Below, in pieces: positions 4,156 through 20,965 of a DNA stretch of 35,580 nt. The first letter of the stretch is position 1; each line of letters begins with the position of its first letter. Under the pieces are notes generated by a model. It was given only the letters and a program-made list of their open reading frames with translations, was not told the origin of the DNA and did no database searches. The stretch covers positions 1 through 35,580 of the forward strand of contig JAQUXM010000017.1 of assembly GCA_028692415.1 (NCBI GenBank), in the 5' to 3' direction. The stretch comes from Syntrophomonadaceae bacterium (GTDB lineage: Bacteria; Bacillota; Syntrophomonadia; Syntrophomonadales; Syntrophomonadaceae). The translations under genes and the position numbers were made by a program.

Positions 4156-4297
4156 AGCTATAACGAGGCGAAAAGATGTCCAACGTTTCTTTAAGCCGTG
4201 CAGGTTTTAAAAACAAAACAGGCGTCGGGTTCTAATTCCCTCGCCTCGTTGCAGCGATGTGGAAGAAGCTGCTCCGCAGTTTCTTCCGATGCTTAAA
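4156..4297 (+). ncRNA. Structured element family 2, copy A, before the pilX-like gene
   Basis: This is a 142-base element. Outer arms AACGAGGCG (4162-4170) and CGCCTCGTT (4242-4250) pair. Inside are short hairpins ACG/CGT, GTTTT/AAAAC and GGG/CCC. After the outer stem comes a 12-bp hairpin with triloop (4261-4287) and the conserved tail GATGCTTAAA. The downstream gene's ribosome binding site starts 8 bases after the tail. Copies B-E share this plan with compensating changes in the arms. It may be an RNA element or a mobile repeat; function unknown. Confidence 0.6.
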
Positions 4298-4318
4298 AGC
4301 GATAAAAGGAGTTTACCG

Positions 4319-4879
4319 GTGGAAGACAAAAAAGTACCCCTTGATGAAGACGGAAACCTGATGTTAATGGTTTTAATGATTTTTTTGGTCTTAAGTGTTT
4401 TGGGTACAAGCGTAATCAGTTTAGCAAGCATGGAAAACAAGATCAGCCATTATGCGGTAAATGCCCAGCAAGCCCAGCAAGCAGCTGATGCGGGAGCGGA
4501 GTGGGCGATAGAACAAATATGGAATCGAGGTTTGCCAGAAATATTTGAAGAAGAGTTGGAAATTGGAGAAGGTATAAATGTACAAGTAAAGGTTACGGCC
4601 AGAGAAGCTGTTGAAATAAATCAAGGCAACGGCAACGGCAACGGTAATGGCAACGGTAATGGCAATGGCAATGGCAATGGTAACGGTAACGGTAATGGCA
4701 ACGGAAACAATGGCAATGATGCTCCCTTGGATAGTATTGAATGCCGGTATCAATTTACGGTGCAGTCAGATTATCAGGGCGCCAGGAAGGAGCTTGCAGT
4801 TGAGGTTGTCTACTTATATTCCGGGAGTAATCCTCTTCATTATGATCAGGTGGCGATAGAGGCCTATACATATAATTAA
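4319..4879 (+). CDS. PilX-like pilus assembly protein with a Gly-Asn repeat tract
   Basis: The product has 186 residues from a GTG at 4319 with AAGGAG at 4306-4311. An upstream in-frame start at 4259 lies inside repeat copy A and has no ribosome binding site, so I reject it. The N-terminus has a charged stretch, then DEDGNLMLMVLMIFLVLSVL, a single membrane helix, then a helix rich in Ala/Gln (about 40-65), as in PilX N-terminal domains. A tract of 14 Gly-Asn pairs (4625-4708) sits at about residues 103-130, followed by a beta-rich tail. No clear prepilin cleavage site of the G/F type is present. It probably belongs to the minor pilin priming complex with the two preceding gene products. Confidence 0.75.
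   Translation: MEDKKVPLDEDGNLMLMVLMIFLVLSVLGTSVISLASMENKISHYAVNAQQAQQAADAGAEWAIEQIWNRGLPEIFEEELEIGEGINVQVKVTAREAVEINQGNGNGNGNGNGNGNGNGNGNGNGNGNGNNGNDAPLDSIECRYQFTVQSDYQGARKELAVEVVYLYSGSNPLHYDQVAIEAYTYN
4625..4717 (+). repeat. Hexanucleotide GGNAAY tract coding for (Gly-Asn)14
   Basis: Fourteen in-frame hexamers of the form GGC/GGT/GGA + AAC/AAT, then AAT GGC AAT. Third-position variation shows the tract is not a fresh slippage product. Gain or loss of whole units would keep the reading frame and change only linker length. It matches in composition the Gly/Asn linker of the propeller-bearing prepilin at 2272. Confidence 0.9.
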
Positions 4880-4958
4880 GTGCGAAAAAAGGATAAACGC
4901 TTTCAAAAATTAGAGTGAATTTATTGGACTTTTAACATGAATGATGGGATAAGTTTTT

Positions 4959-5702
4959 ATGATGAACTATCTTCTGGTGGGAGGTTTCTCACTATTAATA
5001 GGTTCCTTCCTTAATGTACTGGTTTTTCGTCTCCTGCAGCGGGAATCGATTATTGTCCCGAGGAGTTATTGCCCGTTATGTGGACAGACCTTAAAAGCTG
5101 CCGATCTTATTCCGCTGCTAAGCTATATCCTGCTGGGAGGCCGATGCCGCTACTGTAAGGGGAAAATCAAGATCCAATATCCCCTGGTTGAATCTCTTAC
5201 GATGCTCTTATCCATGCTGATTTATAGTAAGTGGGGCCTCTCGTTTCACTTTATTGAAGGCTGTATCTTTACTGCGCTGTTAATCACAGCGAGCTTTACT
5301 GACCTGAATGAGGGTATTATCCCGGACCGCTTGACTTACCCGGGTATTATCAGCGGTTGCCTTTTAGCCTGCTTTTCCGCAGGCATAGGCAATGCAATCC
5401 TGGGAGCCGCAGTTTTTGGCGGTTTTTTTCTTATCATAGCCAGTGTGTTTCAGGGTGGTATGGGTGGCGGAGATATTAAACTGGCAGCTCTGATTGGGGT
5501 CTATACTGGCCTGCAGGGAGCCATAATGGTTTTTATATTATCATCCTTGCTGGCTGGTCTCTGGGTATTACCGCTCTGCTTGCAGGGCCAAGCAAGCCGT
5601 AAGACGAAGATTAAGCTAGGACCGTTTCTGGCGATTGCTGCCTGGGTGGTGTGGATGTATGGGAACGAAATGATGCTGGCTTATTTGCGCTGGCTGGCTT
5701 AG
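4959..5702 (+). CDS. pilD: Prepilin peptidase / N-methyltransferase (PilD/ComC type)
   Basis: This inner-membrane aspartic protease cuts the leader from the prepilins encoded just upstream and methylates the new N-terminus. The 247 residues include the zinc-binding pair CPLC (38-41) and CRYC (63-66) of the methyltransferase half, and the catalytic aspartates Asp115 in TDLNEG and Asp172 in GGGDIK. About seven or eight hydrophobic helices are visible. Two adjacent ATG codons at 4959 and 4962 are possible starts; the upstream GGGATAAG is a weak ribosome binding site. Context inside a pil cluster makes the assignment firm. Confidence 0.95.
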   Translation: MMNYLLVGGFSLLIGSFLNVLVFRLLQRESIIVPRSYCPLCGQTLKAADLIPLLSYILLGGRCRYCKGKIKIQYPLVESLTMLLSMLIYSKWGLSFHFIEGCIFTALLITASFTDLNEGIIPDRLTYPGIISGCLLACFSAGIGNAILGAAVFGGFFLIIASVFQGGMGGGDIKLAALIGVYTGLQGAIMVFILSSLLAGLWVLPLCLQGQASRKTKIKLGPFLAIAAWVVWMYGNEMMLAYLRWLA

Positions 5703-5839
5703 TGCAAAGGGCAAGGCGGTTATAAGTGATAATTACGCAGCAGGATTTTAACGTTTGGGAGTTGAACAAATAAGAATTAAGGTTAAGCTTTTTGTGGTTA
5801 GTTTTAAATTTAGGCCTGGGGAGATTTGGGGGAGTAGTT

Positions 5840-6835
5840 GTGTTTAAGCGGGCAGCCGATCTGGGGTTGGATATAGGCAGCAAAAAAACCAAGCTGGCCA
5901 AGGTGAAACGCAAGGGTCTTGAATGGCAATTGGTCAAATATGGATGCATCGATACTCCGGCAGGTTTGGTGGAAGCCGGAAACATTTCTGAGCCCGAAAA
6001 AGTTGGAGCCGGGCTGGCTGGTCTGGTAAAAAGCATGGGCCTGGAAGGACAGCGGGTAGTATCGGCTGTTTCAGGGCAACAAGTCTATATTCGGAATCTG
6101 GTGCTGCCTCGGATGAGCCGGGTTGAGAGCAGGGAAGCGGCTATTTATCAGGCTGTCACTTTTCTTCCTATTCCCATCGAAGAAGCGGCTATTGATGTTT
6201 TCCCTTTGCGAGATTTTGAGGATGAAGATGGCAAGAAAAGCGAATTGTTTTTCGTAGCGGTACCTCGCCTGCAGGTGGACAACCTGGACCTGGCCTGCCA
6301 TACCGCCGGGCTCAGACTAGTGGCGGTAGAAATTGAGCCGCTGGCGATTAATCGTATTATGCTGCCCGAATATGCTTCCGGCGTCCGGGCATTACTCCAA
6401 ATAGGGGCCTCGCGCTGTTATTTCTCAGTATTCAGCGGGCATACCCTGCTGTTTTACCGCACCTTATCTTCCTTTTACCAGAATATTAGCTTCATTATCG
6501 GTGAAGAGAATATGGATTTTGAAAGCCTTAAAAATATACAGGAAGGGCAATTCAGATACATTGTCAGAGACCTGATTTCCGAGGTCAACCGTTCAGTTGA
6601 GTATTTTAATATTCAACACCATCCACAAAAATTGGAGAGGCTTTGGTTATGCGGAGGGGGGACCGGCTTAAAAGGCCTGGATACGGCACTGGCAGCGGAA
6701 ATATCCTGTGAGGTTCAGGTTGCCGATTTCCTTCCCCGTTTCATTCTGCCGGCTGATATGGATGACCGGGCCAAACGGGAAATAAATTATGACCTTCCGG
6801 TTGCCTTGGGTCTGTCGGCTAGAGAGGTGATATAA
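5840..6835 (+). CDS. pilM: Type IV pilus assembly actin-like protein PilM
   Basis: This is a cytoplasmic actin/FtsA-like ATPase that forms the alignment complex with PilN and PilO. The start is a GTG at 5840 with GGGGGAG at 5828-5834, giving 331 residues. A longer in-frame start at 5792 has no ribosome binding site. The first phosphate-binding loop is LGLDIGSKKTKLAKV. The second part has LWLCGGGTGLKGLDTAL near residue 275, the adenosine motif of the family. The stop overlaps the pilN ATG by one base, so the two are translationally coupled. Confidence 0.92.
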   Translation: MFKRAADLGLDIGSKKTKLAKVKRKGLEWQLVKYGCIDTPAGLVEAGNISEPEKVGAGLAGLVKSMGLEGQRVVSAVSGQQVYIRNLVLPRMSRVESREAAIYQAVTFLPIPIEEAAIDVFPLRDFEDEDGKKSELFFVAVPRLQVDNLDLACHTAGLRLVAVEIEPLAINRIMLPEYASGVRALLQIGASRCYFSVFSGHTLLFYRTLSSFYQNISFIIGEENMDFESLKNIQEGQFRYIVRDLISEVNRSVEYFNIQHHPQKLERLWLCGGGTGLKGLDTALAAEISCEVQVADFLPRFILPADMDDRAKREINYDLPVALGLSAREVI

Positions 6836-7386
6836 TGGATTCTGCAAAACCCATCTATATCAATTTACTGATTCGGGAGCAGCAGCAAAAAAGGCGAATT
6901 CCGGCCTCCTTGATGGCTTGCCTGCTATTAGCGGTTTTGGGGATTGGGCTGGGCTGCTGGCATGGATATATGCAGGATGAACTGCGGTCTTTGCAGGCTG
7001 AAAATGCTGAATTGCAGGCGGAACTGGGCCAATTTAAAGAAGAGCAGCTTGAACTCCAGTCTTATCAGGATTTACGCAGCCAGATAGAGAGCAAGGAAGC
7101 AAGGGTAAGTGAGGTAAGCGAGGCAAAAATCAACTGTGTAGAGGTTTATGAAGAGATAGAGCAGGCGCTTCCCCGTGGCCTGGTGCTAATAGGCATAGAA
7201 ATAAACAAGGAAAAGGTGATGATGAACGGTTATGCGGTTGATTACGAAGATCTTGCCGCGGCATTGTCAGGTTTAAGGAAAAGTCCTTTGCTGCACAATG
7301 TCATGCTGCTCTCATCCAATATCGATAAAGACAGCGGAGAAGTATTGTTCAAGGTGGAAATGAGATGGGAGGCCGGCAAAGAATGA
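6835..7386 (+). CDS. pilN: Type IV pilus alignment-complex protein PilN
   Basis: A 183-residue bitopic membrane protein. The short cytoplasmic N-terminus contains YINLL (residues 8-12), the known PilM-docking motif of PilN. A membrane helix follows (about 24-42), then a coiled coil (about 45-95), then a ferredoxin-like periplasmic-type domain. It overlaps pilM by one base and its stop overlaps the pilO start (ATGA-type), so the three are likely made in fixed ratio. Confidence 0.9.
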   Translation: MDSAKPIYINLLIREQQQKRRIPASLMACLLLAVLGIGLGCWHGYMQDELRSLQAENAELQAELGQFKEEQLELQSYQDLRSQIESKEARVSEVSEAKINCVEVYEEIEQALPRGLVLIGIEINKEKVMMNGYAVDYEDLAAALSGLRKSPLLHNVMLLSSNIDKDSGEVLFKVEMRWEAGKE

Positions 7387-8141
7387 TGCTTTCCAGGCGA
7401 GAAAAAATACTGCTCACACTTCTGCTTATATTAGGATTGGCGATTTCCTATAATTACCTGGTCTACCAACCAGGTCAAATTGCCAGGAAGCACTTGATTC
7501 AGGAAAACGGTGTTTTAATAAGCTTAATTGAAAGAGGTACCAGCGCCAAAGCCCAAAACCTGGATATAAACCAGGAAAAGACCAGAATAGTTAAAGCAGG
7601 CAATGAACTTATGCTTCAGATTCCAAGCTCGGCCAGGGTGCCCGAAACCGTAGCTTTTTTAAAAAGAACCGCACGGGATACCCATGTGAATTTGCAGAGT
7701 ATAAATTACGCAATTAATAAGAGCAAGACCGGCATGAATAAAAATGCTAAAGCAAACAAGGATATTTTAGAAAAGGTGCAGGTTCTGGATTATAATATCA
7801 CGATTCAGGGGGGATATAATAATCTGCTGGCCTTTCTTTTAAAATTTGAAAATGCCCCCCGTCTTTATACGATAAACAATTGCCGGATGATCGCAAATGC
7901 CCAAAAGTTTGATGAAGCCGCGATCAGCGAGGTCCTAACTTCGTTAATTGAGGACCCGGAAGCGGCTCCAGTGCCTGTGCCTTTGCCCATTATGCCTAAA
8001 GGTTCAGCTATTTATGATGGTAATAGTATTCAGCTTAATTTGAAGTTTTCCGCTTATTATGAAGAAGAGACGATTCCCGGCTTGAACGCCGGGGAAGAGG
8101 AAGTGCCGGCCGCTTCCGGAAAGATAAACCCATTTCTGTAA
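7383..8141 (+). CDS. pilO: Type IV pilus alignment-complex protein PilO
   Basis: The start is the ATG at 7383, with GGGAGG at 7367-7372; it overlaps the pilN stop. The 252 residues hold one N-terminal membrane helix (about 8-26), a coiled coil (about 35-75) and a C-terminal PilO-like alpha/beta fold with a Pro-rich insertion (VPVPLPIMP). PilO pairs with PilN. The cluster ends here: no pilP or pilQ follows, which fits a cell that needs no outer-membrane secretin. Confidence 0.85.
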   Translation: MMLSRREKILLTLLLILGLAISYNYLVYQPGQIARKHLIQENGVLISLIERGTSAKAQNLDINQEKTRIVKAGNELMLQIPSSARVPETVAFLKRTARDTHVNLQSINYAINKSKTGMNKNAKANKDILEKVQVLDYNITIQGGYNNLLAFLLKFENAPRLYTINNCRMIANAQKFDEAAISEVLTSLIEDPEAAPVPVPLPIMPKGSAIYDGNSIQLNLKFSAYYEEETIPGLNAGEEEVPAASGKINPFL

Positions 8142-8147
8142 ATAACT

Positions 8148-8292
8148 CAACTTTCGTAGTTGACATATTATGCGGCACAACTAAATTGTCATTGCTGAGG
8201 CAACGCTTCTCCTTTGTCATTGCTATGAAACTACTGTGCTTGTCATTGCTATGAAACTACTGTGCTTGTCATTGCTATGAAAACTCGCGTAT
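8148..8292 (+). repeat. Leader module plus 26-bp tandem repeats of family 1
   Basis: 8148-8213 resembles 3776-3853 (AACTTTCGTAGTTGACA start). It is followed by two identical 26-bp units (8214-8239, 8240-8265) that begin TTGTCATTGCTATGAAACTA and a third diverged 27-bp unit (8266-8292). The unit start TTGTCATTGC equals the outer end of the inverted-repeat element that follows, so the units look like decayed or aborted element ends. One reverse-oriented unit is found at 15843-15863. Confidence 0.8.
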
Positions 8293-8293
8293 T

Positions 8294-8476
8294 TGTCATT
8301 GCGAGGAGCGTAAGCGACGCGGCAATCTTCCCCGGTCATTGCCGTATAAATGGAAAATGCTCTGACGCTTTTCGTTTAGCGTGGCGGGTTATTACCCGTG
8401 ATAATTGCGAGCGGTAGCGAAGCAATCTAAAATGACTTGGCGATGGATAGATTGCTTCGCTGCACTCGCAACGACA
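8294..8476. repeat. Family 1 repeat, second copy
   Basis: It begins TGTCATTGCGAGGAGCGTAA and shares with the copy at 3854 the core that contains GGCGGGTTATTACCCGTGAT. Here the right half is replaced by a separate hairpin: arm 8401-8429 (ending AGCGAAGCAATCTA) pairs with 8448-8476 (TAGATTGCTTCGC...). No coding frame of interest lies inside. Confidence 0.75.
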
Positions 8477-8489
8477 TATAATCCCCTGT

Positions 8490-8597
8490 CTCGTTGCAGC
8501 GGTGTGTTGCCCCCTACGGGGACTACTTATATTAGTTCCCTTCGGGAATGGTTGAATTATGTTGAAAACTGTTTTAAGGTTTCTTTCGATGCTTAAA
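8490..8597 (+). repeat. Degenerate family 2 element (copy F) with foreign hairpins
   Basis: The 5' piece CTCGTTGCAGCGGTGTG (8490-8506) and the 3' piece TTTCTTTCGATGCTTAAA (8580-8597) match the second half of copies A-E. Between them lie two small hairpins, CCCC/GGGG near 8511-8521 and TTCCC/GGGAA near 8536-8548, in place of the usual CTGC/GCAG hairpin. The first matches CCCCCTACGGGGACTACT near 18809. It is a partial or rearranged copy, upstream of tldD. Confidence 0.5.
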
Positions 8598-8767
8598 TTT
8601 GTTTGGTGATGGGAAAACATATTTAATAGAACTATGTGAGGCATGAGGCGTCACGAGTAAGGGGATGGTTCTCTTACCAGCCCTGCTTTGCGAAATTCTT
8701 GGCGGAAATCGGGCAATTGCCTTTAGTTTATTTAAGAAATGGAAATCAAGACAACAGGAGGCTGTTA
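8598..8767 (+). other. Remainder of the repeat-rich gap before tldD
   Basis: This stretch contains GTGAGGCATGAGGCGTCACG near 8635, a relative of the motif found twice as inverted copies at 15571 and 15709. An open frame continues upstream from tldD to 8636, but it has no ribosome binding site and consists of repeat-derived sequence. I see no gene here. The tldD ribosome binding site AGGAGG is at 8757-8762. Confidence 0.5.
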
Positions 8768-10195
8768 ATGTTAGATAAAAATTTAATTTCCAGGGTACTG
8801 GACGAAGCTATGCAAAAGGGCAGTGATTTTGCGGAAATCTATTATGAAGAAAAACAAGTAAGCAATGTATTTTGCGAAGATAATCGTATAGAAAAAGTCA
8901 ATAGCGGGCGGGAAAGAGGGGCCGGAATCAGAGCCGTCAAAGATGGCAATACAGCTTATGTATATACCAGTGATTTATCACTCGAAGGTCTATTGAAAGC
9001 AGCCGCCGTAGCCAATCATGTCGCCAGTGCCCAGGTTCGCAGTATTGACCGGGAGATTAACTTATCAATTAAAGAGCCGCGTTTTAACATGGAATACAAG
9101 CGTTTACCTGAACAGGTAGATTTTGAAGAAAAAATAGAGCAAGTCCTGGCGGCCAATGAACGGACCAGGAATTATGCACAGGAGATTCGGCAGGTTACCG
9201 TAGCCGCTGGAGACATGCAGCGCAAGATTCAAATAGCCAATAGCAATGGGGACTTGATAGAAGAAGAACAGGCCCGGGTCAGGCTAATCGTAAATGCGGT
9301 AGCTTCGCGGGAAGGTATGGTTCAAACCGGCTATGAATCGGCGGGAACGGTTGGCGGTTGGGAACTGCTGGATAATATTAATTTTGCCGAAATGGGCGAA
9401 AAAGCTGCACGGCTGGCGGTGGAAATGCTGTCGGCAAGACCAGCCCCGGCCGGGCGCATGCCAGTCGTAATGGCCTCGGAAGCTGGCGGTACGATGGTGC
9501 ATGAAGCTTGCGGTCATGGCTTGGAAGCCGACCTGGTGCAGAAAGGCCTCTCAGTATATCGCAAGCAACTGGGAGAGATGGTTGCCGCCGAGGGGGTCAG
9601 CGTTATTGATGACGCTACACTGCCCGGTCGTTATGGCAGCTATAGATTTGATGATGAGGGCAATTATGGGCAGCGGCAGGCTTTAATCGATAATGGCGAA
9701 CTGAAAGCGTATCTCTATGACTATCTTACAGCATCCAAGGAAGGAAAAAAGTTTAGCGCCAATGGCCGCCGCGAGTCCTATCAGCATAAACCCATCCCCC
9801 GGATGAGCAATACCTTCATTGCTCCCGGTAAAGATGACCCGGCAAGCATCCTTAAGGATACCAGGTCTGGACTGCTGGTTAAAAAAATGGGTGGGGGACA
9901 GGTGAATACTACCAACGGGGATTTTGTTTTTGATGTACAGGAGGCTTACATAATCAGTGAAGGGGAAATAAAATACCCGGTGCGGGGAGCCACGCTAATT
10001 GGCAATGGCCCTCAGGTCCTGGGGGATATTGATATGCTGGGGAACGACCTGGGCTTTTCCATTGGTACCTGCGGCAAGGATGGACAGGGAGTTCCGGTTG
10101 CTGATGCCCAGCCCACCATTCGAATAAAGCAAATGACGGTGGGCGGGACTGCGGTTGAAGATGGACCGCAGATTAAACGAATCAGAAGAAAGTAG
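8768..10195 (+). CDS. tldD: Metalloprotease TldD (peptidase U62 family)
   Basis: TldD is the catalytic half of the TldD/TldE heterodimeric zinc protease, which degrades unfolded peptides and matures some peptide products. The start ATG at 8768 has AGGAGG six bases upstream, giving 475 residues. The zinc motif HEACGH (residues 245-250, in GGTMVHEACGHGLEAD) is intact. The C-terminal half carries the conserved blocks around RMSNTFI and GQVNTTNGDFVF. It lies 10 bases before tldE, as expected for partners. Cellular substrates cannot be read from this context. Confidence 0.95.
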   Translation: MLDKNLISRVLDEAMQKGSDFAEIYYEEKQVSNVFCEDNRIEKVNSGRERGAGIRAVKDGNTAYVYTSDLSLEGLLKAAAVANHVASAQVRSIDREINLSIKEPRFNMEYKRLPEQVDFEEKIEQVLAANERTRNYAQEIRQVTVAAGDMQRKIQIANSNGDLIEEEQARVRLIVNAVASREGMVQTGYESAGTVGGWELLDNINFAEMGEKAARLAVEMLSARPAPAGRMPVVMASEAGGTMVHEACGHGLEADLVQKGLSVYRKQLGEMVAAEGVSVIDDATLPGRYGSYRFDDEGNYGQRQALIDNGELKAYLYDYLTASKEGKKFSANGRRESYQHKPIPRMSNTFIAPGKDDPASILKDTRSGLLVKKMGGGQVNTTNGDFVFDVQEAYIISEGEIKYPVRGATLIGNGPQVLGDIDMLGNDLGFSIGTCGKDGQGVPVADAQPTIRIKQMTVGGTAVEDGPQIKRIRRK

Positions 10196-10205
10196 GTTGT
10201 TACCG

Positions 10206-11546
10206 GTGGAGATAATACTCAAAAAAGCAGGAGAACAGGTACTTGATATAGCCCGCCAAAAAGGTGTTGAAGCTGAGGCGTTTCTTTTGCATGCCAGGGA
10301 ATTAGGGATTGAGATTATTGATGGTCGGATGGATACCCTGAAAGAAGCTGAGGAAATCGGGATAGGAATAAGAATAATTAACGATGGGCGGGTAGGCTTT
10401 GTCTACAGCAGCGATTTATCCGGCCCGGCCATTGCAGAAGCAGTTAATCATGCTCTGAGTATTTCCCGTTATACGGTTGCCGATGAGCATAACAAGCTGC
10501 CGCAGGGTAATTATGCTTATCCTGCGATGGCACTTTTTGATGATAATATTGTTTCCACCAGTCTGGAAGCCAAGATTGAGATGGCCCGGCAAATAGAGCG
10601 GGTTGCCCGCGCCAGTGATCCCCGGGTACGGATCATTGAGCGGGCCGGTTATGATGACCAGGAGTTTACGGCAGTTATTATGAACACCCACGGACTTTAT
10701 GCGGCTGGTCGTGCAAACTCCTGCGGTTTGTATATTTTTCTGGTAGCGGAAGAAGAGAATGATGCCCAGAACGGCTTTTCTTTCATGAGTAAAAAGCGGA
10801 TTCAGGAATTGCAGCCGGATGCCGTTGGCCAGGAAGCTGCCCGGCGCGCGGTTCGAAGTCTTAATGCCCGCAGCATTAATTCCGCGCAAATGCCTTGCAT
10901 TATGGAACCCTACGTAGTGACCAGATTTTTGGGTTTGTTTGCGCAAGTCGTTGATGCCGGAGCAGTGCAAAAGGGCAAATCATTATGGGAAAAACAAATC
11001 GGTCAACAAGTAGCTTCGACACAAGTCTCGCTGGTGGACGATTCTACCTATGCCGAGGGAATAGCGGCATTTCCATTTGATGGAGAAGGAATTCCCGCCC
11101 AAAGAAATACGGTGATAAAAGACGGTGTTTTACAAACCTTTTTATATGATAGTTATACTGCCGGCAAAGCAGGGGTTAAATCTACCGGCAACGGCCAGCG
11201 CGGGTCTTTTCGCAGTCTTCCTTACGTGGGCACCAGCAACTTTATACTGCAACCGGGCAATAAAAGCCCCGACCAGCTTATTAGGGAAGTACAAAAAGGT
11301 TTTTATGTTACGGAGCTTATGGGTATGCATACGGCCAATCCCATATCAGGTGACTTTTCTCTGGGGGCCTCCGGGCTGATGATTGAAAATGGCCAGTTAA
11401 CTTATCCGGTAAGGGGAGTTACTATAGCCGGAAATATGGTAAAATTCTCTAAGGATATTGAAGCCTTGGGTAATGATCTCTGCTTTTTTGGATCCCGAGC
11501 TGCAGCTACTATCCGTTTGAACAGTATGAGTATTGCTGGTGAATAG
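10206..11546 (+). CDS. tldE: TldD partner TldE (PmbA)
   Basis: The non-catalytic or regulatory partner of TldD, 446 residues from a GTG at 10206. The GTG is preceded by AGTAGG at 10191-10196. A TTG at 10155 would overlap tldD by 41 bases and add residues that family members lack. The HExxxH motif is absent at the equivalent place (EPYVVTRFLGLFAQ), as in TldE. Conserved blocks such as GNGQRGSFRSLPYVGTSNF and the C-terminal IEALGNDL are present. Assignment is firm; the exact start is moderately sure. Confidence 0.92.
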   Translation: MEIILKKAGEQVLDIARQKGVEAEAFLLHARELGIEIIDGRMDTLKEAEEIGIGIRIINDGRVGFVYSSDLSGPAIAEAVNHALSISRYTVADEHNKLPQGNYAYPAMALFDDNIVSTSLEAKIEMARQIERVARASDPRVRIIERAGYDDQEFTAVIMNTHGLYAAGRANSCGLYIFLVAEEENDAQNGFSFMSKKRIQELQPDAVGQEAARRAVRSLNARSINSAQMPCIMEPYVVTRFLGLFAQVVDAGAVQKGKSLWEKQIGQQVASTQVSLVDDSTYAEGIAAFPFDGEGIPAQRNTVIKDGVLQTFLYDSYTAGKAGVKSTGNGQRGSFRSLPYVGTSNFILQPGNKSPDQLIREVQKGFYVTELMGMHTANPISGDFSLGASGLMIENGQLTYPVRGVTIAGNMVKFSKDIEALGNDLCFFGSRAAATIRLNSMSIAGE

Positions 11547-11557
11547 GAGGTAACGAT

Positions 11558-12007: not shown

Positions 12008-12016
12008 AGGTGCCCT

Positions 12017-13651: not shown

Positions 13652-13659
13652 AAATTATT

Positions 13660-13825
13660 CTAGTACCCTGTCAACCCTAATTCTATATCTTCTTGTCGGT
13701 AAAATTCATGTATGACTGCGTTGTCGTCAATCGCAATACGTCCAGTATTACTCATTCCTCCGCCTTGTCCTGCATGAATTTTACTCGACAAATAATATAT
13801 ATAATTAAGATTGACAGGGTACTAG
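13660..13825. mobile_element. MITE-like element, CTAGTACCC family, copy 1
   Basis: It is a 166-bp element with perfect 15-bp terminal inverted repeats, CTAGTACCCTGTCAA at 13660-13674 and its reverse complement at 13811-13825. Subterminal arms also pair imperfectly (TTGTCGGTAAAATTCATG with CATGAATTTTACTCGACAA), so the whole element can fold as a long hairpin. A second copy in the opposite orientation is at 29363-29581. It has no open frame of note and probably moves with a transposase supplied elsewhere. Confidence 0.8.
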
Positions 13826-13831
13826 TTTAAT

Positions 13832-13893
13832 TCCTCCTTTTTAGTCAAATAATAAGATTAGATCTTAATTTGATTTGGATGTAAAAAGGAGGA
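13832..13893 (+). promoter_or_regulatory. Hairpin that sequesters the ribosome binding site of the next gene
   Basis: TCCTCCTTTTTA (13832-13843) is perfectly complementary to TAAAAAGGAGGA (13882-13893), which contains the Shine-Dalgarno sequence of the gene starting at 13900. Inside, TCAAAT/ATTTGA and TAAGAT/ATCTTA extend the fold around a TAG loop. In the folded state the ribosome binding site would be closed, so regulated translation is inferred. There is no U-run after the stem on this strand, so a plain terminator is less likely. Confidence 0.6.
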
Positions 13894-13899
13894 TGTCAG

Positions 13900-14337: not shown

Positions 14338-14351
14338 AAACGCCTTTAAGC

Positions 14352-14402
14352 AGGGGACAATTGTGTTAGGCATAAGCCAAAACATGATTGTCCCCTTTTT
14401 CT
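14352..14402 (+). terminator. Rho-independent terminator after the zinc-ribbon gene
   Basis: GGGGACAAT (14353-14361) pairs with ATTGTCCCC (14387-14395), directly followed by TTTTTC. The loop contains a further short hairpin, GGC/GCC. It separates the zinc-ribbon gene from the spoIIIA operon, so spoIIIA needs its own promoter between here and its start. Confidence 0.85.
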
Positions 14403-14438
14403 TGGAATAAATTACGCCAATATCCAATATCTATTTAG

Positions 14439-14577
14439 AAGCTATATAACGAGATGAAAAGATGTCCCCCGCTAAGCGGTCGGGTTGCTATTAACAAAAC
14501 CGGCGGCGGCTGCCAATCCCCCGCCTCGTTGCAGCGGTGCGGAATAAACTGTGCCGCAGTTTCTTACGATGCTTAAA
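14439..14577 (+). ncRNA. Structured element family 2, copy B, before spoIIIAA
   Basis: The outer arms are AACGAG (14448-14453) and CTCGTT (14525-14530), shorter than in other copies because the next bases have diverged. The first inner hairpin is stronger than elsewhere, CCGC/GCGG with loop TAA; the second is GGTT/AACC; the third GGCGG/CCGCC. The 3' hairpin AAACTG/CAGTTT and tail GATGCTTAAA are kept. Only about 40 bases separate its start from the preceding terminator, so it would be part of the spoIIIA leader RNA. Confidence 0.6.
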
Positions 14578-15562
14578 GATCAGGAAAGCTTTAAGGTGGT
14601 GTTCAAAACTGCTTGCGAATAAGGAAACCATACGCAAAGAAATAGGCTCTTATCTGCCGGCTGGCATCAAGGAAAAACTGCTCAAGCTGCCGGATGAATG
14701 CTATACCAAACTGGAGGAAATTCGCATTCGTGCTGCGAAACCGCTGCAACTCAGAATCGGGGAAGAAGACTATGGCTTGAGTTTACGAGCGGAGCTGGTG
14801 AAGGATTTATGCGAATCATACATCGTCACTGCAGATGATGTTTTTCGGATTCTTGCCTCTATCAGCGACAATTCCTTATATGCCTTTGAAGAAGAAATCA
14901 GAAGAGGATTTATAACCATCCCCGGGGGTCATCGGGTGGGACTGGCCGGGCAGGTAATACTGCAGGGCAATGAGGTCAAAACCATAAAGGATTTTTCCGG
15001 TATCTGTTTTAGGGTGGCCCGTGAGGTCAAGGATTGCGCCCGAACAATTATACCGCAAATTTGCGTTGGTTCGAAAGGGACTCCCGTAAACACGCTGATA
15101 ATATCACCGCCCCGTTGCGGTAAAACCACCATACTTAGGGATTTGGCCAGGTTGTTGTCCACGGGCAGCAAGCAGGGTGGAGCCCAGAACGTGGTAATTA
15201 TTGATGAACGATCAGAGATTGCCGGCTGTTACCGGGGAGTTCCCCAGTTGGAGGTTGGACCGCGTACCGATGTGTTGGATGCTTGTCCCAAGGCACTGGG
15301 TATGATGATGGCTATTCGCTCGCTTTCACCCCAGGTGCTGATAACCGATGAGATCGGCAGCCGGGAAGATCTGCAGGCTATAAATGATTGTGTTAATGCC
15401 GGGGTAGCGCTAATTAGCAGTATTCACGCCAAAAACCTGGATGATATCAAAAAACGGCCCCAGCTAAACCAACTGCTAAACACCGGAGTCTTTAAAACCC
15501 TGGTGGTTTTGTCCCGGCGCAGCGGACCAGGCCGGGTAGAAGAGATTATCAGCTTGGGTTGA
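14537..15562 (+). CDS. spoIIIAA: Stage III sporulation protein AA, ATPase
   Basis: SpoIIIAA is a mother-cell ATPase of the VirB11/secretion type, part of the SpoIIIA-SpoIIQ feeding channel. The Walker A motif is SPPRCGKTT (near residue 190) and the Walker B is VVIIDERSE. Conserved EEIRIR, IPGGHRVGLAG and ITDEIGS blocks are present. The start is a problem. The only ATG/GTG/TTG in frame is the GTG at 14537, which lies inside repeat copy B and has no ribosome binding site. AAGGTGGT at 14593-14600 points instead to a CTG at 14609, which would give the usual N-terminus of about 317 residues. I give the longer form because its start codon is standard. Confidence 0.9.
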   Translation: MRNKLCRSFLRCLKIRKALRWCSKLLANKETIRKEIGSYLPAGIKEKLLKLPDECYTKLEEIRIRAAKPLQLRIGEEDYGLSLRAELVKDLCESYIVTADDVFRILASISDNSLYAFEEEIRRGFITIPGGHRVGLAGQVILQGNEVKTIKDFSGICFRVAREVKDCARTIIPQICVGSKGTPVNTLIISPPRCGKTTILRDLARLLSTGSKQGGAQNVVIIDERSEIAGCYRGVPQLEVGPRTDVLDACPKALGMMMAIRSLSPQVLITDEIGSREDLQAINDCVNAGVALISSIHAKNLDDIKKRPQLNQLLNTGVFKTLVVLSRRSGPGRVEEIISLG

Positions 15563-15729
15563 TAAGAAAAGTGAGGCGTCAGGGGTAAGTGGCCCGGAGG
15601 CTGATTTAAGGCAGGAAAGCGGCCGCTTCCCTTTGGGGTTACAGAGTTTTTTCGTGGGCGGTAAACGAGAATGATGTGATGGGCGAGGGATAGTGTAATC
15701 AAATACGTCTCACGCCTCTTACCCCTCAC
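15563..15729. repeat. Gap with inverted GTGAGGCGT...GGGGTAAG copies
   Basis: GTGAGGCGTCAGGGGTAAG at 15571-15589 reappears in inverted form at 15709-15729 (CTCACGCCTCTTACCCCTCAC minus one base in length). The sequence between them is GC-rich and shows no ribosome binding site with a gene. The motif resembles the GTAAGGA heptamers at 16439 and a stretch near 8635. It splits spoIIIAA from spoIIIAB, which are adjacent in most genomes. Confidence 0.55.
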
Positions 15730-15863
15730 AATTATCACGGGTAATAACCCGCCACGATAAACGAAAAGCGTTAGAGCATTTTTCATTTATGCGGCAATGA
15801 CCGGGGAAGATTGCCGCGTCGCTTACGCTCCTCGCAATGACAAATACGCGAGTTTTCATAACA
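15730..15863 (-). repeat. Family 1 repeat, third copy, reverse orientation
   Basis: Read on the minus strand it begins with the tandem-type unit (15863-15843) and TGTCATTGCGAGGAGCGTAA, then the core up to CGGGTTATTACCCGTGAT at 15731. The far arm is missing. It lies inside the spoIIIA operon between spoIIIAA and spoIIIAB, so it is carried on the operon transcript. Confidence 0.75.
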
Positions 15864-15909
15864 ATAACTTTACATAGATGTTTGGTGCTGGACATGGAGG
15901 GGTAATGCA

Positions 15910-16431
15910 ATGTGGATAAAAATCATAGGTATTGCGTGTATCATATCGGGTTTTGGTGCCTGGGGGATGAATGGGTCGCGAACGTTGGAAAAGCGAGTAG
16001 CCCAGATCAAAGAAATCAGGTTAGCCCTGGGTTTTTTAGAAAAAGAGATTAGCTGTATGTATATTCCACTGCCCCGAGCCTTGGAACGAACCGCCCGTTT
16101 TTGCAAGGAGCCGATTACGGTGCTGTTTGCAGAAAGTTCCAGGCAATTGCAGGGCCGGGAGGGGGTTACTGCGAGTGAGGCGTGGTCATATGGCTTAAAA
16201 GCCTTAAAGCGGGATTCCGATCTCAAGGAAATTGATCTTGAATTGTTGGCTGCGGCAGCTCCGCAACTGGGTATGTCAGATGCATTACAACAGAAAAAAA
16301 TTTTTAACATGCTGCTGGAAGAGCTGGGGATTTTGGAGGCCAAAGCCGTACAGGAAGCGCAGGCGGGCCGCAAGCTATGGAACTATGGAGGATTTATGCT
16401 GGGAGCGTTAATCGTCCTCTTGCTGATTTGA
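15910..16431 (+). CDS. spoIIIAB: Stage III sporulation protein AB
   Basis: A 173-residue protein of the SpoIIIA channel complex with an N-terminal membrane helix (about 3-20) and a C-terminal one (about 157-173). The helical middle resembles type II secretion F domains, as in the family. Conserved features include RxLGFLEKEI-like sequence and the C-terminal YGGFMLGALIVLLLI. GGAGGGG lies ten bases before the ATG. It is separated from spoIIIAA by 347 bases of repeat sequence. Confidence 0.93.
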   Translation: MWIKIIGIACIISGFGAWGMNGSRTLEKRVAQIKEIRLALGFLEKEISCMYIPLPRALERTARFCKEPITVLFAESSRQLQGREGVTASEAWSYGLKALKRDSDLKEIDLELLAAAAPQLGMSDALQQKKIFNMLLEELGILEAKAVQEAQAGRKLWNYGGFMLGALIVLLLI

Positions 16432-16626
16432 AAATCAGGTAAGGAGTAAGGAGTAAGGAGTAAGGGGTGGAGAACATTAACGTTAAGATTGTATCAATAG
16501 AAAACTAGAGAACGATTCACCCTTCAGATAAAAACTTCAAACGAATATCTTCGCTTTTGATTACAAAGTAAAAGGCAATCGTTTTTCTTATCAATTCTAA
16601 GCTTAGCAATTATTAGGGGGGTTAGT
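16432..16626 (+). repeat. Short gap with GTAAGGA heptamer repeats
   Basis: Four heptamers, three GTAAGGA and one GTAAGGG, run from 16439 to 16466. The rest of the 195 bases is AT-rich with no gene. The ribosome binding site of spoIIIAC (AGGGGGG) ends the gap. Heptamer arrays of this kind are prone to slippage. Confidence 0.7.
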
Positions 16627-16821
16627 ATGGATGTCGAAATTATTTTTCGGGTAGCTGGTATTGGCATTTTAATTTCCATCTTGTCCATAGTCTTGAAACA
16701 GGCTAAGAAAGAAGAGCAGGCGGAAATGTTAACACTGGTTGGAGTAGTAGTGGTCCTGATTATTGTGGTGCAACTAATGAACCAGCTTTTCACGGTGGTT
16801 AGATCAGTTTTTAAGCTATAA
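16627..16821 (+). CDS. spoIIIAC: Stage III sporulation protein AC
   Basis: A 64-residue membrane protein with two hydrophobic helices (about 6-24 and 37-58) separated by a charged loop KQAKKEEQAEM, which is the SpoIIIAC pattern. Length is usual. The stop codon TAA at 16819-16821 overlaps the first bases of repeat copy C, so the repeat joined or formed the very end of the gene. The product works with SpoIIIAD in the channel base. Confidence 0.93.
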   Translation: MDVEIIFRVAGIGILISILSIVLKQAKKEEQAEMLTLVGVVVVLIIVVQLMNQLFTVVRSVFKL

Positions 16822-16954
16822 CGAGGCGAAAAGATGGCCGCCGCTTCATTAAACGCTTGGGCTTCTATTAAGAAACAGGCGGTGAGTTCTGCTGGTCCCG
16901 CCTCGTTGTAGCGGTGTGAAAGAAACTGCTTCGCAGTTTCCGCTGATGCTTAAA
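16813..16954 (+). ncRNA. Structured element family 2, copy C
   Basis: Outer arms AACGAGGCG (16820-16828) and CGCCTCGTT (16899-16907). The middle inner hairpin is TTCT/AGAA with loop ATTA and the third is GGCGG/CCGCC. The 3' hairpin GAAACTGC/GCAGTTTC has loop TTC. It starts inside the last codons of spoIIIAC and ends in GATGCTTAAA, directly joined to copy D. Confidence 0.65.
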
Positions 16955-17088
16955 CGAGGCGAAAAGATGTCTCCCGCTTATTTAAACGGTTGGGTTTCTA
17001 TTAACAGAACAGGCGATGGGTTCTGCTGTTCCCCGCCTCGTTGCAGCGGTGCGGAAGAAACTGCTCCGCAGTTTTTTCCGATGCTAAA
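16953..17088 (+). ncRNA. Structured element family 2, copy D, tandem with C and before spoIIIAD
   Basis: Outer arms are AACGAGGCG (16953-16961) and CGCCTCGTT (17034-17042). Inner hairpins are CCG/CGG, TTCT/AGAA and GGG/CCC. The 3' hairpin is the longest of the family, about 13 pairs with triloop TCC. It lacks the AGCTATA lead seen in A, B and C because its 5' end is fused to the TTAAA tail of copy C. An open frame from 16916 across C and D is repeat-derived and not a gene. Confidence 0.65.
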
Positions 17089-17124
17089 AAGGCTAAAAAA
17101 GCAGAGCGTGAAGGGGAGATCAAG

Positions 17125-17514
17125 GTGGAAATACCTCAGGTAGTAGGATTAGCCCTGCTCACAACCATACTGTTGCTTATCCTTCGGCAGGAAAAACCGG
17201 TGATGGCCGTGATTTTAAGTATTGTCTTCAGTATAGTGATTTTTATATTTATGATGGGGAAAATGGCCAGCATTATTGAGGTTATGCAGGAGTTAACCCA
17301 CCGGGCTCAAATCAACTATTTTTTTATGGCAACTATTTTAAAGATACTGGGGGTAGCCTATCTGGGGGAGTTTGCAGCAGCTATCTGCCAGGATGCCGGT
17401 GAGCAGGCGGTAGCCCGGAAGGTTGAATTTGCCGCCAAGATAATAATTGCCGTTTTGGCTTTACCGATTATGATCGCCATCCTCGAATCCCTGATGGATA
17501 TTATGCCCGGCTAA
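17125..17514 (+). CDS. spoIIIAD: Stage III sporulation protein AD
   Basis: Start at GTG 17125 with AAGGGGAG at 17111-17118. The upstream in-frame TTG at 17041 lies in repeat copy D and would add residues that read as repeat translation. The resulting 129 residues match the usual SpoIIIAD length. It is an integral membrane protein with about four helices and a conserved KxLGVAYLGEFAAAICQDAGE block. It is a paralog-like partner of SpoIIIAC. The 303 bases before it are filled by two family 2 repeats. Confidence 0.93.
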   Translation: MEIPQVVGLALLTTILLLILRQEKPVMAVILSIVFSIVIFIFMMGKMASIIEVMQELTHRAQINYFFMATILKILGVAYLGEFAAAICQDAGEQAVARKVEFAAKIIIAVLALPIMIAILESLMDIMPG

Positions 17515-17569
17515 GGGCAAGCTTTAAGCTTTGAACCAATTCTATTTAAAGCCGGAGAGGTGAGCATTA

Positions 17570-18748
17570 ATGATAAGAAAATATTTACCGGCACTGATAA
17601 TATTTTGCCTCTTGGGCTTACCGTTGCCGGCTTTGGCAGCCAGCGATGATGAGACTGCAGCTGCTTTCTCCTTGCAGGATGCGGTAAGCAATTTGGACCT
17701 TGCGGTCCTGGAAGAGTATAAGAGCAATATCGATAGTGAAATTACTTACTACATGGATGGGAAGACCGTTAAGGACTTGCTCCTGGAATTCGTCCAGGGC
17801 AAATGGGAATTTGATATTAAGGAACTGGGCAGCAACTTAATGCAGTTTCTTTTTAAAGAAATATCAGCTAATTCCGGTTTGCTGGGGAAATTATTGATTC
17901 TCTCAGTACTGGCGGCATTATTGCTTAATCTGCAGAGCGCATTTGCTTCGGGGATAGCCCAAATATCATATTTGGCATGTTTCATGGCTTTGGCAGCCAT
18001 AGCTATAGGATCATTTCGGGTGGTTCTGGAACTTGGGCAGCATACGGTGGACAACATGGTCACTTTTATGATGGCTATGCTGCCGCAGATGCTGGTATTG
18101 ACTGCCGGTTTGGGCAATATTCATGCCTCGGCAATATTGTTTCCGATTCTTATGACTGTAGCCACCGCGTTTGCCAATGCGGTTAAGAATATCGTTTTTC
18201 CCCTGATTATTATGTCGGCCATTCTCAGTTTGATCAATCATATGTCGGGCAGTTTGAAGGTCGAGAAAATGTCCAAATTCTGCGGGCAGATGGCGCAAGT
18301 ATCACTCGGTTTGTTCTTGAGCGTTTTTGTAGGTTTTGTAACCCTGAGGGCGTTGTATGCTTCGGTGTTGGATAAGGTTGCCCTAAGGACCACCAAATTT
18401 GTCACCGACAATGCGATTCCGGTGGTAGGGAAAATGGTCTCCGATTCCATTGAAGTAGCGGCGGGATATGTCGTTATGCTTAAACAAGCGCTGGGGGTGG
18501 TAGGGGTAATAATCATCTTGGGGATAATTATTTTTCCTTTATTGAAAGTGGCAGCCCTGGCTTTGATTTACAAGATTACGGCGGCGGTGGTTGAACCCTT
18601 GGGTGATGCCAAAACCGCGGCGATTCTTGACACCATGAGCTCACATCTTTTCTTGATGCTGGCGGCAGTGGCCTCGGTGGGGCTGATGTTTTTTATCATG
18701 ATTGCCATCGTGGCAGGCATGTCCAATGGTCTGGGCGCACTGCGGTAA
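17570..18748 (+). CDS. spoIIIAE: Stage III sporulation protein AE
   Basis: A 392-residue polytopic membrane protein. The N-terminus is a signal peptide ending ALA-A near residue 23. An extracytoplasmic segment (about 24-110) and at least seven hydrophobic helices follow, including the conserved HASAILFPILMTVATAFANAV-like region (conserved core ILFPILM). Length and layout are those of the family. AGAGGTGAG precedes the ATG at 17570. Confidence 0.95.
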   Translation: MIRKYLPALIIFCLLGLPLPALAASDDETAAAFSLQDAVSNLDLAVLEEYKSNIDSEITYYMDGKTVKDLLLEFVQGKWEFDIKELGSNLMQFLFKEISANSGLLGKLLILSVLAALLLNLQSAFASGIAQISYLACFMALAAIAIGSFRVVLELGQHTVDNMVTFMMAMLPQMLVLTAGLGNIHASAILFPILMTVATAFANAVKNIVFPLIIMSAILSLINHMSGSLKVEKMSKFCGQMAQVSLGLFLSVFVGFVTLRALYASVLDKVALRTTKFVTDNAIPVVGKMVSDSIEVAAGYVVMLKQALGVVGVIIILGIIIFPLLKVAALALIYKITAAVVEPLGDAKTAAILDTMSSHLFLMLAAVASVGLMFFIMIAIVAGMSNGLGALR

Positions 18749-18762
18749 AGGAGGGATGAGAT

Positions 18763-19029
18763 ATGTCTTATTGCAAATATGTGTCGTTCAATTCATACTG
18801 TAATATTCCCCCCCTACGGGGACTACTGATGCTTCCTCCGGTCGCCAATAAGGTTGCTGAAAAGCCCGGACTATTGGTTGAGGAAGGAAAAGATATATCT
18901 AATTCGAGGATTGTAATCTTAAAGGGTTTTTGTTGCCACCTAAACTCGCCTTTACCTCTTTTCATCCACATTACAGTATGTCTTTTACTAAGTTGTAGCA
19001 AAGGAGTTCTGGGAGGTGGGTTGCTATGA
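18763..19029 (+). CDS. Doubtful small ORF between spoIIIAE and spoIIIAF
   Basis: The frame has 88 codons, a good ribosome binding site (AAGGAGGG seven bases upstream) and a stop that overlaps the spoIIIAF start as ATGA, which would allow coupling. Against it, the sequence is Cys-rich, matches nothing I know, and its last codons are just the spoIIIAF ribosome binding region. Positions 18794-18980 are bounded by an 11-bp inverted repeat. I think it is probably chance coding over an inserted sequence. Confidence 0.2.
   Translation: MSYCKYVSFNSYCNIPPLRGLLMLPPVANKVAEKPGLLVEEGKDISNSRIVILKGFCCHLNSPLPLFIHITVCLLLSCSKGVLGGGLL
18794..18980. repeat. Insert bounded by an 11-bp inverted repeat
   Basis: CATACTGTAAT (18794-18804) and ATTACAGTATG (18970-18980) are exact reverse complements. 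The region between them contains CCCCCTACGGGGACTACT, also present near 8510 in the degenerate copy F, followed by GATGCTT as in family 2 tails. No transposase is present. It may be a small mobile element or relic between two otherwise adjacent spo genes. Confidence 0.4.
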
Positions 19030-19610
19030 GTACCCTGGCGGAAATAGTAAAGAATATTCTCTTTATCATTATTCTGGCCAGCTTCATGGAAATTCTGCTG
19101 CCGGATGGCGGGCTCAAGCCATTTGTGCGGTTTGCGATAGGATTATTTATCTTGATTAGCGTTTTGAGTCCAGTACTTTCCCTCCTATTTAGCCAGCAGC
19201 AATTTGAAGTCAAGCTCTGGGATTACCAGTCAAATATCGACCAAAGCGAGCACATAAGCAAAAAAGGCCAGGATCTAAACCGGCAAATTAAGGAAAGTAA
19301 TAATGCCGCACTACGGGAAAAAATGCAGGGGCAAATAGCCAGTATGGCTATGCTGGTTCCCGGGGTGCAGCGATTGGAAACCAGAATTGACCTGGGACAG
19401 GAGGGAAACCTGGAAAAGCTTCATATTATGGTGAAAGCCGGAAAACCTGAACAGCCCAAGGAACCCGCAAGTACCCTGGTGTTTTCAGAGACCCAGACTA
19501 TAGTTGGGGAAGTGGAAAAGGCTGAGGTAAAGGATAAAATACTCGCTTTGCTGTGCAACCTGTATGGACTGCAAAAAACTGATATTGAAATAGAATTTGA
19601 AGGGAGTTGA
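19026..19610 (+). CDS. spoIIIAF: Stage III sporulation protein AF
   Basis: A 194-residue protein of the SpoIIIA complex. Two membrane helices occupy about residues 8-25 and 35-55, with the family motif LLPDGGLKPFVRFAIGLFIL. A soluble C-terminal domain follows, of ring-building-motif type in known members. GGGAGGTGGG precedes the ATG. The stop lies four bases before the spoIIIAG start. Confidence 0.93.
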   Translation: MSTLAEIVKNILFIIILASFMEILLPDGGLKPFVRFAIGLFILISVLSPVLSLLFSQQQFEVKLWDYQSNIDQSEHISKKGQDLNRQIKESNNAALREKMQGQIASMAMLVPGVQRLETRIDLGQEGNLEKLHIMVKAGKPEQPKEPASTLVFSETQTIVGEVEKAEVKDKILALLCNLYGLQKTDIEIEFEGS

Positions 19611-19614
19611 ATCC

Positions 19615-20199
19615 ATGTTGGATGAATGGATCAGACGAGGTCAGGATAGTGGCGAAGACAGCTGGGCTTGGCTTAAAGGCAAAAAGAGTCGCTATATTAT
19701 GGTGATCATGATTTGTCTGGGTTTACTGGCCCTGCTCTGGCCGGTAAGCAGGGTTGAAAAAGCAGCTGTACCGCTTGCCGGTAATGAAAAACTGCTAACG
19801 GAAGGCAGTGTCAAAGCCCAGTTGACAGCCGAACTGGAATCAATACTGGCAGCAATTGATGGTGCCGGACGGGTAGAAGTTTGTCTAACCCTTAGTTCTG
19901 AAGGGGTAAAGAGTTATGCCAGTAATCGCCGGGATGAGAAGCGGGAAACCGAAGAAAGTGAAGCCCGGGAGATTAAGAAAAAAAGCCGGGAGGAAAATAT
20001 TGTGCAGGATCTGGCAGTGTCTTCGGGAGCTCCGCTATTAATTGAAGAAAAATTTCCCAAGGTACTGGGGGTACTGGTCGTTGCTGATGGAGCAAATCAA
20101 AAAGTGGTGCAGGAAGAATTAAGTGATGCCACTGCAACCCTTCTTAATATTCCAGTGCATAAGGTTAGGGTAATGCCCCGGAAAGGAGAGAGCCGATGA
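19615..20199 (+). CDS. spoIIIAG: Stage III sporulation protein AG
   Basis: The ATG at 19615 has AAGGGAG eight bases upstream; an in-frame TTG at 19597 would overlap spoIIIAF and is less likely. The 194 residues have one membrane helix (about 27-45) and an extracytoplasmic domain with a highly charged segment (RRDEKRETEESEAREIKKK) and the C-terminal VLVVADGA...NIPVHKVRV block typical of SpoIIIAG. In Bacillus this protein builds the large ring on the mother-cell side of the channel. Confidence 0.93.
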   Translation: MLDEWIRRGQDSGEDSWAWLKGKKSRYIMVIMICLGLLALLWPVSRVEKAAVPLAGNEKLLTEGSVKAQLTAELESILAAIDGAGRVEVCLTLSSEGVKSYASNRRDEKRETEESEAREIKKKSREENIVQDLAVSSGAPLLIEEKFPKVLGVLVVADGANQKVVQEELSDATATLLNIPVHKVRVMPRKGESR

Positions 20200-20765
20200 A
20201 TAAAATGATTATATTGAATTCACCCCCTAATGGCGTTAATAAAAGGAAGGTGGCGGTGGCTATAGGCGTGGTTGTTCTATTCCTGCTGGCGGTTAAACTC
20301 CTGGGAACAATCTACTATAGTGAAAGCGCGCAGCCAATCAAGGAAAGCAGTACATATGAGCAGTCTGCAGCGCCAGATAAGGAAAAGGTTAAAGAGGATA
20401 TTATGCAAGAGGCGGCTTTCTATTCAGGCTATCGCATGGAAAGGGAAAAAGTGCGCGGTAAGCAAATTGATGTATTAAATGAAGTTATCAATAGTCAGGA
20501 AAATAACCAGCAGGCTCAGCTCGCAGCAGCAAACCGCCTGGTGCAGATTACTGAGGATATGGAAACGGAACTTAAGGCCGAGCAGCTATTAAAATCCAAG
20601 GGTTATCGGGATTGCGTGGTCATTATGCAGGGGGAATCTGCAACCGCGGTTATTCAATCCAATCCCTTGGTGACCGAAGAAAAGCTGGAACTCAAGTCAA
20701 TGCTGGGGCGGCTAACCAACTGTAAAGCTGAAGCGGTGTCTATAATTGTTAATCGTGGAGAATAA
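20196..20765 (+). CDS. spoIIIAH: Stage III sporulation protein AH
   Basis: SpoIIIAH forms the mother-cell ring that docks SpoIIQ. The 189 residues have a membrane helix (about 19-38), a variable linker and a C-terminal YscJ/FliF-like domain (about 65-187; conserved LxxKGYRDCVVIMQ region). The start overlaps the spoIIIAG stop by four bases (ATGA), so the two are coupled. It is the last spoIIIA gene. Confidence 0.93.
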   Translation: MNKMIILNSPPNGVNKRKVAVAIGVVVLFLLAVKLLGTIYYSESAQPIKESSTYEQSAAPDKEKVKEDIMQEAAFYSGYRMEREKVRGKQIDVLNEVINSQENNQQAQLAAANRLVQITEDMETELKAEQLLKSKGYRDCVVIMQGESATAVIQSNPLVTEEKLELKSMLGRLTNCKAEAVSIIVNRGE

Positions 20766-20827
20766 TAGATAAAAGTTATGTATACTTATTTTAAGATTGA
20801 AATGAGCTGGCTTTATTTCTATAATGG

Positions 20828-20963
20828 TATAACGAGGTAAAAAGATGTCCCTCCGCTTCTTTAAACGGTCTGGTTCATATTAATGAAACAGGCGCTGGGT
20901 TTAATCTCCCACCTCGTTGCAGCGGTGTGAAAGAAACTGCTCAGCAGTTTCTTCCGATGCTGA
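20828..20963 (+). ncRNA. Structured element family 2, copy E, before oadA-accB
   Basis: The outer stem here is AACGAGGT (20831-20838) with ACCTCGTT (20911-20918): both sides have changed relative to the GAGGCG/CGCCTC of other copies, a compensating pair change. The middle hairpin is TTCAT/ATGAA with loop ATTA, again changed on both sides. The first is CCG/CGG and the third TGGG/CCCA. The 3' hairpin GAAACTGC/GCAGTTTC has loop TCA. This copy gives the best evidence for conserved base pairing. Confidence 0.65.
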
Positions 20964-20965
20964 AG

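Follow-up and report, generated by a model that had tools for sequence, protein, structure and literature searches.

Dispersed hairpin repeats in Syntrophomonadaceae: a probable non-autonomous, PATE-like mobile element

The hallmarks of single-strand transposition by insertion sequences (IS) of the IS200/IS605 type are the absence of target duplication, a short target on the left side, subterminal hairpins and an orientation that follows replication (PMC5371812, PMC6006769); this orientation is reported to recapitulate the direction of replication (PMC5371812). In Haloquadratum walsbyi, palindrome-associated transposable elements (PATEs) are defined by a non-coding unit, near-terminal palindromes like those of IS605 and the lack of a target duplication, and strain-specific insertions of the IS605 type occur in this organism even though its tnpA genes are nearly all broken (PMC3119063). 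Here, a family of short hairpin repeats is described from a stretch of 35,580 nucleotides of a Syntrophomonadaceae bacterium (contig JAQUXM010000017.1, hereafter the window). These repeats are almost certainly copies of mobile DNA, and they probably represent a non-autonomous, PATE-like element that moves in the IS200/IS605 way, as single-stranded DNA. The family is undescribed as far as the searches go, literature searches having returned no description of the repeat, but it is of a known kind.

Copies, ends and target of the repeat

All five repeats that a first-pass annotation had listed on the plus strand of the window are present (Table 1), and copies C and D abut exactly, GATGCTTAAA being followed by CGAGGCG without gap or overlap. 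The alignment of the five has a mean column identity of 78%, and the unit, about 128-134 nt long in the window, is non-coding and too short for a transposase. The similarity, length and copy number of the repeats are far above chance. The plan proposed for them stands as regards the outer stem (GAGGCG/CGCCTC), the first hairpin, the CTGC/GCAG hairpin and the GATGCTTAAA tail, but the second inner hairpin (GTTTT/AAAAC and variants) is unconserved across copies and relatives.

A family size of five proved too small: the window holds a sixth, decayed copy and the genome at least 150. With copy D as query, at least 42 matches were found in the window's own assembly (G000, 92% complete), and they lie on both strands, the placement on a single strand being confined to the window. 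A covariance model (R1), built from 33 own-genome copies, returned copies A, B, D and E of the window with E-values of 1e-34 to 1e-40; copy C was absent from this listing, probably because it overlaps D. Searched against the own and related genomes, as had been suggested, such a model recovers a large dispersed family, with at least 150 copies each in G000 and a congener (G001), 137 in a complete chromosome from the same family (G021, a single contig of 2,936,195 nt), 112 in G059, and 7, 3, 1 or none in further relatives. Outside the host family, the genomes of a distant family (f31) contain 48 (G411), 39 (G326) and 11 (G370) copies, and these are near-identical. A domain model (R2) matches 18 of 399 genomes of the phylum, and the exact 5' pattern also matches metagenome-assembled genomes (MAGs) labelled Clostridiaceae, Gracilibacteraceae and Tepidanaerobacteraceae. 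A search of phages, plasmids and viral contigs gave no matches to the element.

The ends of the element are sharp, TATAA being followed by CGAGG…CTTAAA. In G021, where 95 left and 110 right flanks were compared, conservation begins at TAT|AACGAGG and stops at GATGCTTAAA, and the flanks beyond are unconserved. Three empty sites could be aligned cleanly: copy L043 of G001 against G021, copy L020 of G000 against contig L066 of a related MAG, and a paralogue pair within G021. In each, the unoccupied sequence is recreated by excising AACGAGG…GATGCTTA, and the target is not duplicated; two more diverged cases agree. The shared A's make two notations of the unit equivalent, CGAGG…CTTAAA 3' of TATAA and AACGAGG...CTTA between TTAT and AA. 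Tandem junctions, found at C/D, at L003 and at L256 in G411 (GGCGTTATAACGAGC), are the expected product of insertion at the right end of another copy. Copies of the Syntrophomonas type have no terminal inverted repeats, and the ends of the f31 copies carry TTATAACG/CGTTATAA only; the palindromes are near-terminal, some 20 nt separating the first hairpin from the left end and some 10 nt the 3' hairpin from the right. Thus the 'hairpin-dependent mobile element', one of two options originally offered for these repeats, is strongly supported by the high copy number, the precise ends, the empty sites and the tandem junctions, and it is also backed by the near-identity of the f31 copies and by the likeness of their first hairpin to an IS200/IS605 left end.

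Length variants of the element occur as well. A G021 subfamily (L108-L227; for example chromosome 1266228-1266323 and 1822327-1822422) has one insert of 46-49 nt, or sometimes a tandem pair, within the first hairpin, and 13 of the 15 genome copies of this insert unit lie inside the element, in the same orientation. In G022, the right end of copies L033, L045, L053 and L057 is lengthened by a unit of about 50 nt (CTTATACTTTTGAGCCTGCGAAC...GTGGTGCTCG..AGAGTGCTTC), tandemly repeated in one copy, and still closes near GATGCTTAAA.

Route of movement and search for the enzyme

The lack of target duplication, the short left target, the subterminal hairpins and the replication-linked orientation together point to a route of the IS200/IS605 type. 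Orientation was tested in one complete chromosome, G021, where 85 copies are leading and 32 lagging; in a logistic fit it depends on replication (z=3.0) and on gene direction (z=2.2), the latter value falling to 1.6 once the 13 copies abutting a stop codon are dropped. Furthermore, a weak model match pointed to left ends of IS200/IS605 elements just 5' of Y1 tnpA genes (f31 genomes; L259, L279, L275). Compared with the first hairpin of G411, GATGTCCCCCACCTCTTTAGGTGGGGG, the left-end hairpin GAGAAGTCCTCCACCTCTTAGGTGGGGG gives a score of 39, the highest score among 1,498 control windows being 30. The f31 first hairpin therefore appears to resemble an IS200/IS605 left end, a likeness that is counted as strong but not conclusive, since the match was found before it was compared and such motifs may converge.

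As in the 'peel-and-paste' mode of IS200/IS605, the top strand would fold while single-stranded on the lagging-strand template, and a HUH (Y1-type) transposase acting in trans would recognise the subterminal hairpins. The element would be excised as a single-stranded circle, at whose junction GGCGTTATAA or CTTAAA would be joined to CGAG, and this circle would be pasted where single-stranded DNA is exposed, 3' of TATAA. Copies that have landed would then decay neutrally, mostly in intergenic gaps, where TATAA is common and harmless. The transposase may be lost, missed in assembly, of another kind, or plasmid-borne.

Several results weigh against this route. A match to a known transposon end is seen for the f31 first hairpin but not for the own-genome version, which scores 21 against the IS left end, under the background maximum of 31, and for the right-end module and the inner hairpins no IS match was found. 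No Y1 TnpA, TnpB or IS110 (PF01797, PF07282, PF02371) was detected in G000, at its 92% completeness, or in G411, and G326 has a Y1 remnant only. Y1 genes are also present in relatives that are free of the element, and Y1 does not track it. The four readable Y1 genes of G021 look like RAYTs, the transposases associated with repetitive extragenic palindromes (REPs), and they were rejected as the partner because the short palindromic repeats that flank the four loci are other ones. An autonomous version bounded by these ends was sought in 2.4 Mb of G021 without success, and pairing of orphan left and right ends at distances of up to 6 kb, in G021 and at other loci, gave only copies with small internal inserts and the longer-tailed G022 variants. 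Finally, the sense bias in the own genus (26:2) exceeds what replication alone obviously predicts.

It could be imagined that the same hairpin anatomy is served by an unrecognised, non-canonical mover, such as an HUH protein that has diverged, a host nuclease or recombinase that has been domesticated, or a route by way of RNA. The abundance of copies in G411 and G000, in which Y1, TnpB and IS110 went undetected, fits this explanation, as do the lack of concordance between Y1 and the element and a right end and middle domain unlike known IS ends. However, the IS200/IS605-like first hairpin, the absent target duplication and the replication bias favour the IS200/IS605 route, and a canonical transposase may be lost, unassembled or plasmid-borne; a non-canonical enzyme is thus rather unlikely. 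It is similarly doubtful that there exists in Bacillota a widespread family of mobile hairpins of the single-strand type, spreading to more than 100 copies without a recognised transposase, moved by a novel enzyme or by a host replication or repair activity.

Structure, placement and regulatory roles

The other option originally offered was selection on RNA structure, argued from paired changes among the five copies. The change of the outer stem to GAGGT/ACCTC in copy E is real, but such evidence is anecdotal, and larger samples give two-sided changes at or modestly above independence. Among the 33 own-genome copies, 4 pairs have two-sided changes against 3.0 in shuffles, and changed cells number 7 against 3.2, a measure that can be inflated by sequence relatedness. 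In 138 copies, double Watson-Crick changes, observed and expected, amount to 78/60 in the outer stem, 7/3.9 in the first hairpin and 54/51 in the 3' hairpin. Changes within genomes being near independence, inserted copies mostly drift, and they are so decayed that the RNAalifold consensus of the 33-copy alignment is meaningless.

Whereas covariation within genomes is little or not beyond chance, compensatory changes are present between families. In an alignment of 16 sequences from several families, six pairs in the first hairpin and in the middle hairpin (AACAGGCGG.GAG…CTC.CCGCCT.GTT) show changes in both partners, and none of 500 shuffles attained as many changed cells. The right-end stem by the terminal ATAA occurs as AACGCC/GGCGTT, AATGCC/GGCATT and AAGGCC/GGCCTT, and as AGCGGT/GATGCT in Syntrophomonas. 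For the outer stem, the 3' arm of which is common to the middle hairpin, the 16 sequences contain no two-sided change; in G411 it is apparently retained as GAGCT/AGCTC, with the gap placed by eye. Judging from these alignments, compensatory changes preserve both the hairpins and the right-end stem between families. Covariation between lineages combined with drift within genomes would be explained if the structure matters to the master copy as it moves, be it RNA or single-stranded DNA, rather than at each landing site. Covariation alone cannot separate the two, and that seen across lineages fits single-stranded DNA hairpins equally.

Two other resemblances were rejected. Integron attC sites, which share AAC/GTT arms, are ruled out because the insertion point does not lie between G and TT, and a tRNA-like motif, GGGTTCTAATCCC, reads GAGCATATCTC in f31, and no tRNA layout is retained.

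The copies had also been described as lying in sense before pil, spoIIIA and carboxylase genes. These neighbours are confirmed, but they concern only five of at least 150 sites. The placement analysis of G021 covers 2.4 Mb, with gene calls based on open reading frames and made in this analysis. Nearly all of its 117 matches (89 full length) lie between predicted genes, 70 in co-directional, 40 in divergent and 7 in convergent gaps, while TTATAA sites in the same gaps number 239, 101 and 33, respectively; the excess of copies before genes can be accounted for by this supply (p~0.17, computed by hand). In co-directional gaps, the ratio of sense to antisense copies is 26:2 in the own genus, the contigs of which do not let a replication effect be separated from sense bias, and 54:16 in G021. 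The sense bias is real, but it partly follows replication direction and stop-codon targets, and the target of copy C itself overlaps the spoIIIAC stop codon (TAA 16819-16821). Copies do tend to lie in sense upstream of genes, but the placement is not gene-specific: orientation in G021 follows replication, and positions follow the supply of TTATAA, not specific genes. In f31, a terminator-like hairpin follows 7 of 24 copies at a distance of up to 110 nt, compared with 3 of 138 TATAA sites used as controls.

A cis-regulatory RNA, or structured 5' leader kept before genes for its RNA function, would agree with this sense orientation relative to co-directional neighbours, with the stable fold and with the covariation across lineages. 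It is very improbable, however, in view of the hundreds of copies before unrelated genes, the precise empty sites and tandem copies, the lack of a clear compensatory excess within genomes, the gene context already explained by target sites and the location of some f31 copies at gene ends. No credible Rfam family matched the element, whether the gathering score or a limit of E = 1 was applied. With copies that drift, there is no support for an RNA structure under selection at these sites. That some copies of a mobile element have been co-opted as an RNA or transcription signal (a processing site, a translational insulator in operons or a promoter at the TATAA junction) is suggested by the sense bias and by copies C and D, which transcripts of the spoIIIA operon must read through between spoIIIAC and spoIIIAD, but the copies decay, and we consider it highly unlikely.

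Table 1. Copies of the repeat in the window and Y1 transposase genes of G021
Feature	Target	Position	Strand	Context
Copy A	TATAA 4159-4163	CGAGG...CTTAAA 4164-4297	+	5' of PilX-like (PilX_N) gene 4319-4879
Copy B	TATAA 14445-14449	14450-14577	+	5' of spoIIIAA (PF19568)
Copy C	TATAA 16817-16821	16822-16954	+	between spoIIIAC (16627-16821) and spoIIIAD
Copy D		16955-17088	+	exact head-to-tail tandem with C; next gene spoIIIAD at 17125
Copy E	TATAA 20828-20832	20833-20965	+	5' of PycB/OadA-type carboxylase gene 21086-22987
Sixth, degenerate copy		8411-8601	+	R1 21 bits, E 5e-4; split by insert of ~55 nt
RAYT-like Y1 transposase genes		G021 chromosome 154505, 172577, 192854, 1202866		

Other repeats accompany the element in the window. 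The insert in the decayed sixth copy includes a short repeat (CCCCCTACGGGGACTACT...) at 8510-8549, of which a second copy lies at 18810-18849. A second small repeat, at 13653-13832 and 29362-29581, has terminal inverted repeats of about 40 nt (CTAGTACCCTGTCAA...) and looks like a classical miniature inverted-repeat transposable element (MITE). A dispersed family with TGTCATTGCGAGGAGCGTAAGCGACGCGGCAATCTT has several copies in both orientations (3828-4100, 8215-8416 and 15720-15868), and the PilX-like gene holds a 12-bp tandem repeat (GGCAAYGGYAAY) at 4613-4707.

Comparison with described systems

Intergenic gaps and the interior of core operons gain some 20 kb or more of hairpin DNA from the element, which also provides a ready means of tracing single-strand transposition among anaerobic Bacillota. 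What mobilises PATE-like elements, a puzzle already raised for Haloquadratum, can be put to a concrete test in genomes that hold near-identical copies of it but no recognised transposase.

With classical MITEs the element shares its short, non-coding and dispersed nature and the need for an enzyme in trans, but it lacks a target duplication and, in copies of the Syntrophomonas type, terminal inverted repeats. The system of REPs, bacterial interspersed mosaic elements (BIMEs) and REPINs with their RAYTs is similar in its hundreds of short intergenic hairpin copies and presumed single-strand mobility; the present element is longer, with fixed ends and a fixed target, and the four Y1 loci of G021 are flanked by other repeats. 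As in IS200/IS605 (IS608, ISDra2), there is no target duplication, insertion takes place 3' of a short target, hairpins are subterminal, orientation follows replication (in G021, the one genome tested) and the left-end hairpin is matched by the f31 first hairpin, but the element has neither tnpA nor tnpB, its right end is different and an autonomous copy with these ends was not found. From PATEs it differs in sequence and hosts (Bacillota), in its conserved middle hairpin (AAC...GTT) and a multi-hairpin plan common to several families, in its strict TATAA target and in a right end unlike any IS end compared. Like PATEs (PMC3119063), however, it is non-coding and of high copy number, with near-terminal palindromes, no target duplication and a short target oligonucleotide. 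PATEs have no terminal inverted repeats, and copies of the Syntrophomonas type agree with this, whereas the f31 ends carry TTATAACG/CGTTATAA. A resemblance of the palindromes to ends of the IS605 type, as in PATEs, is seen in the left hairpin of the f31 copies but neither in the own-genome version nor in right ends.

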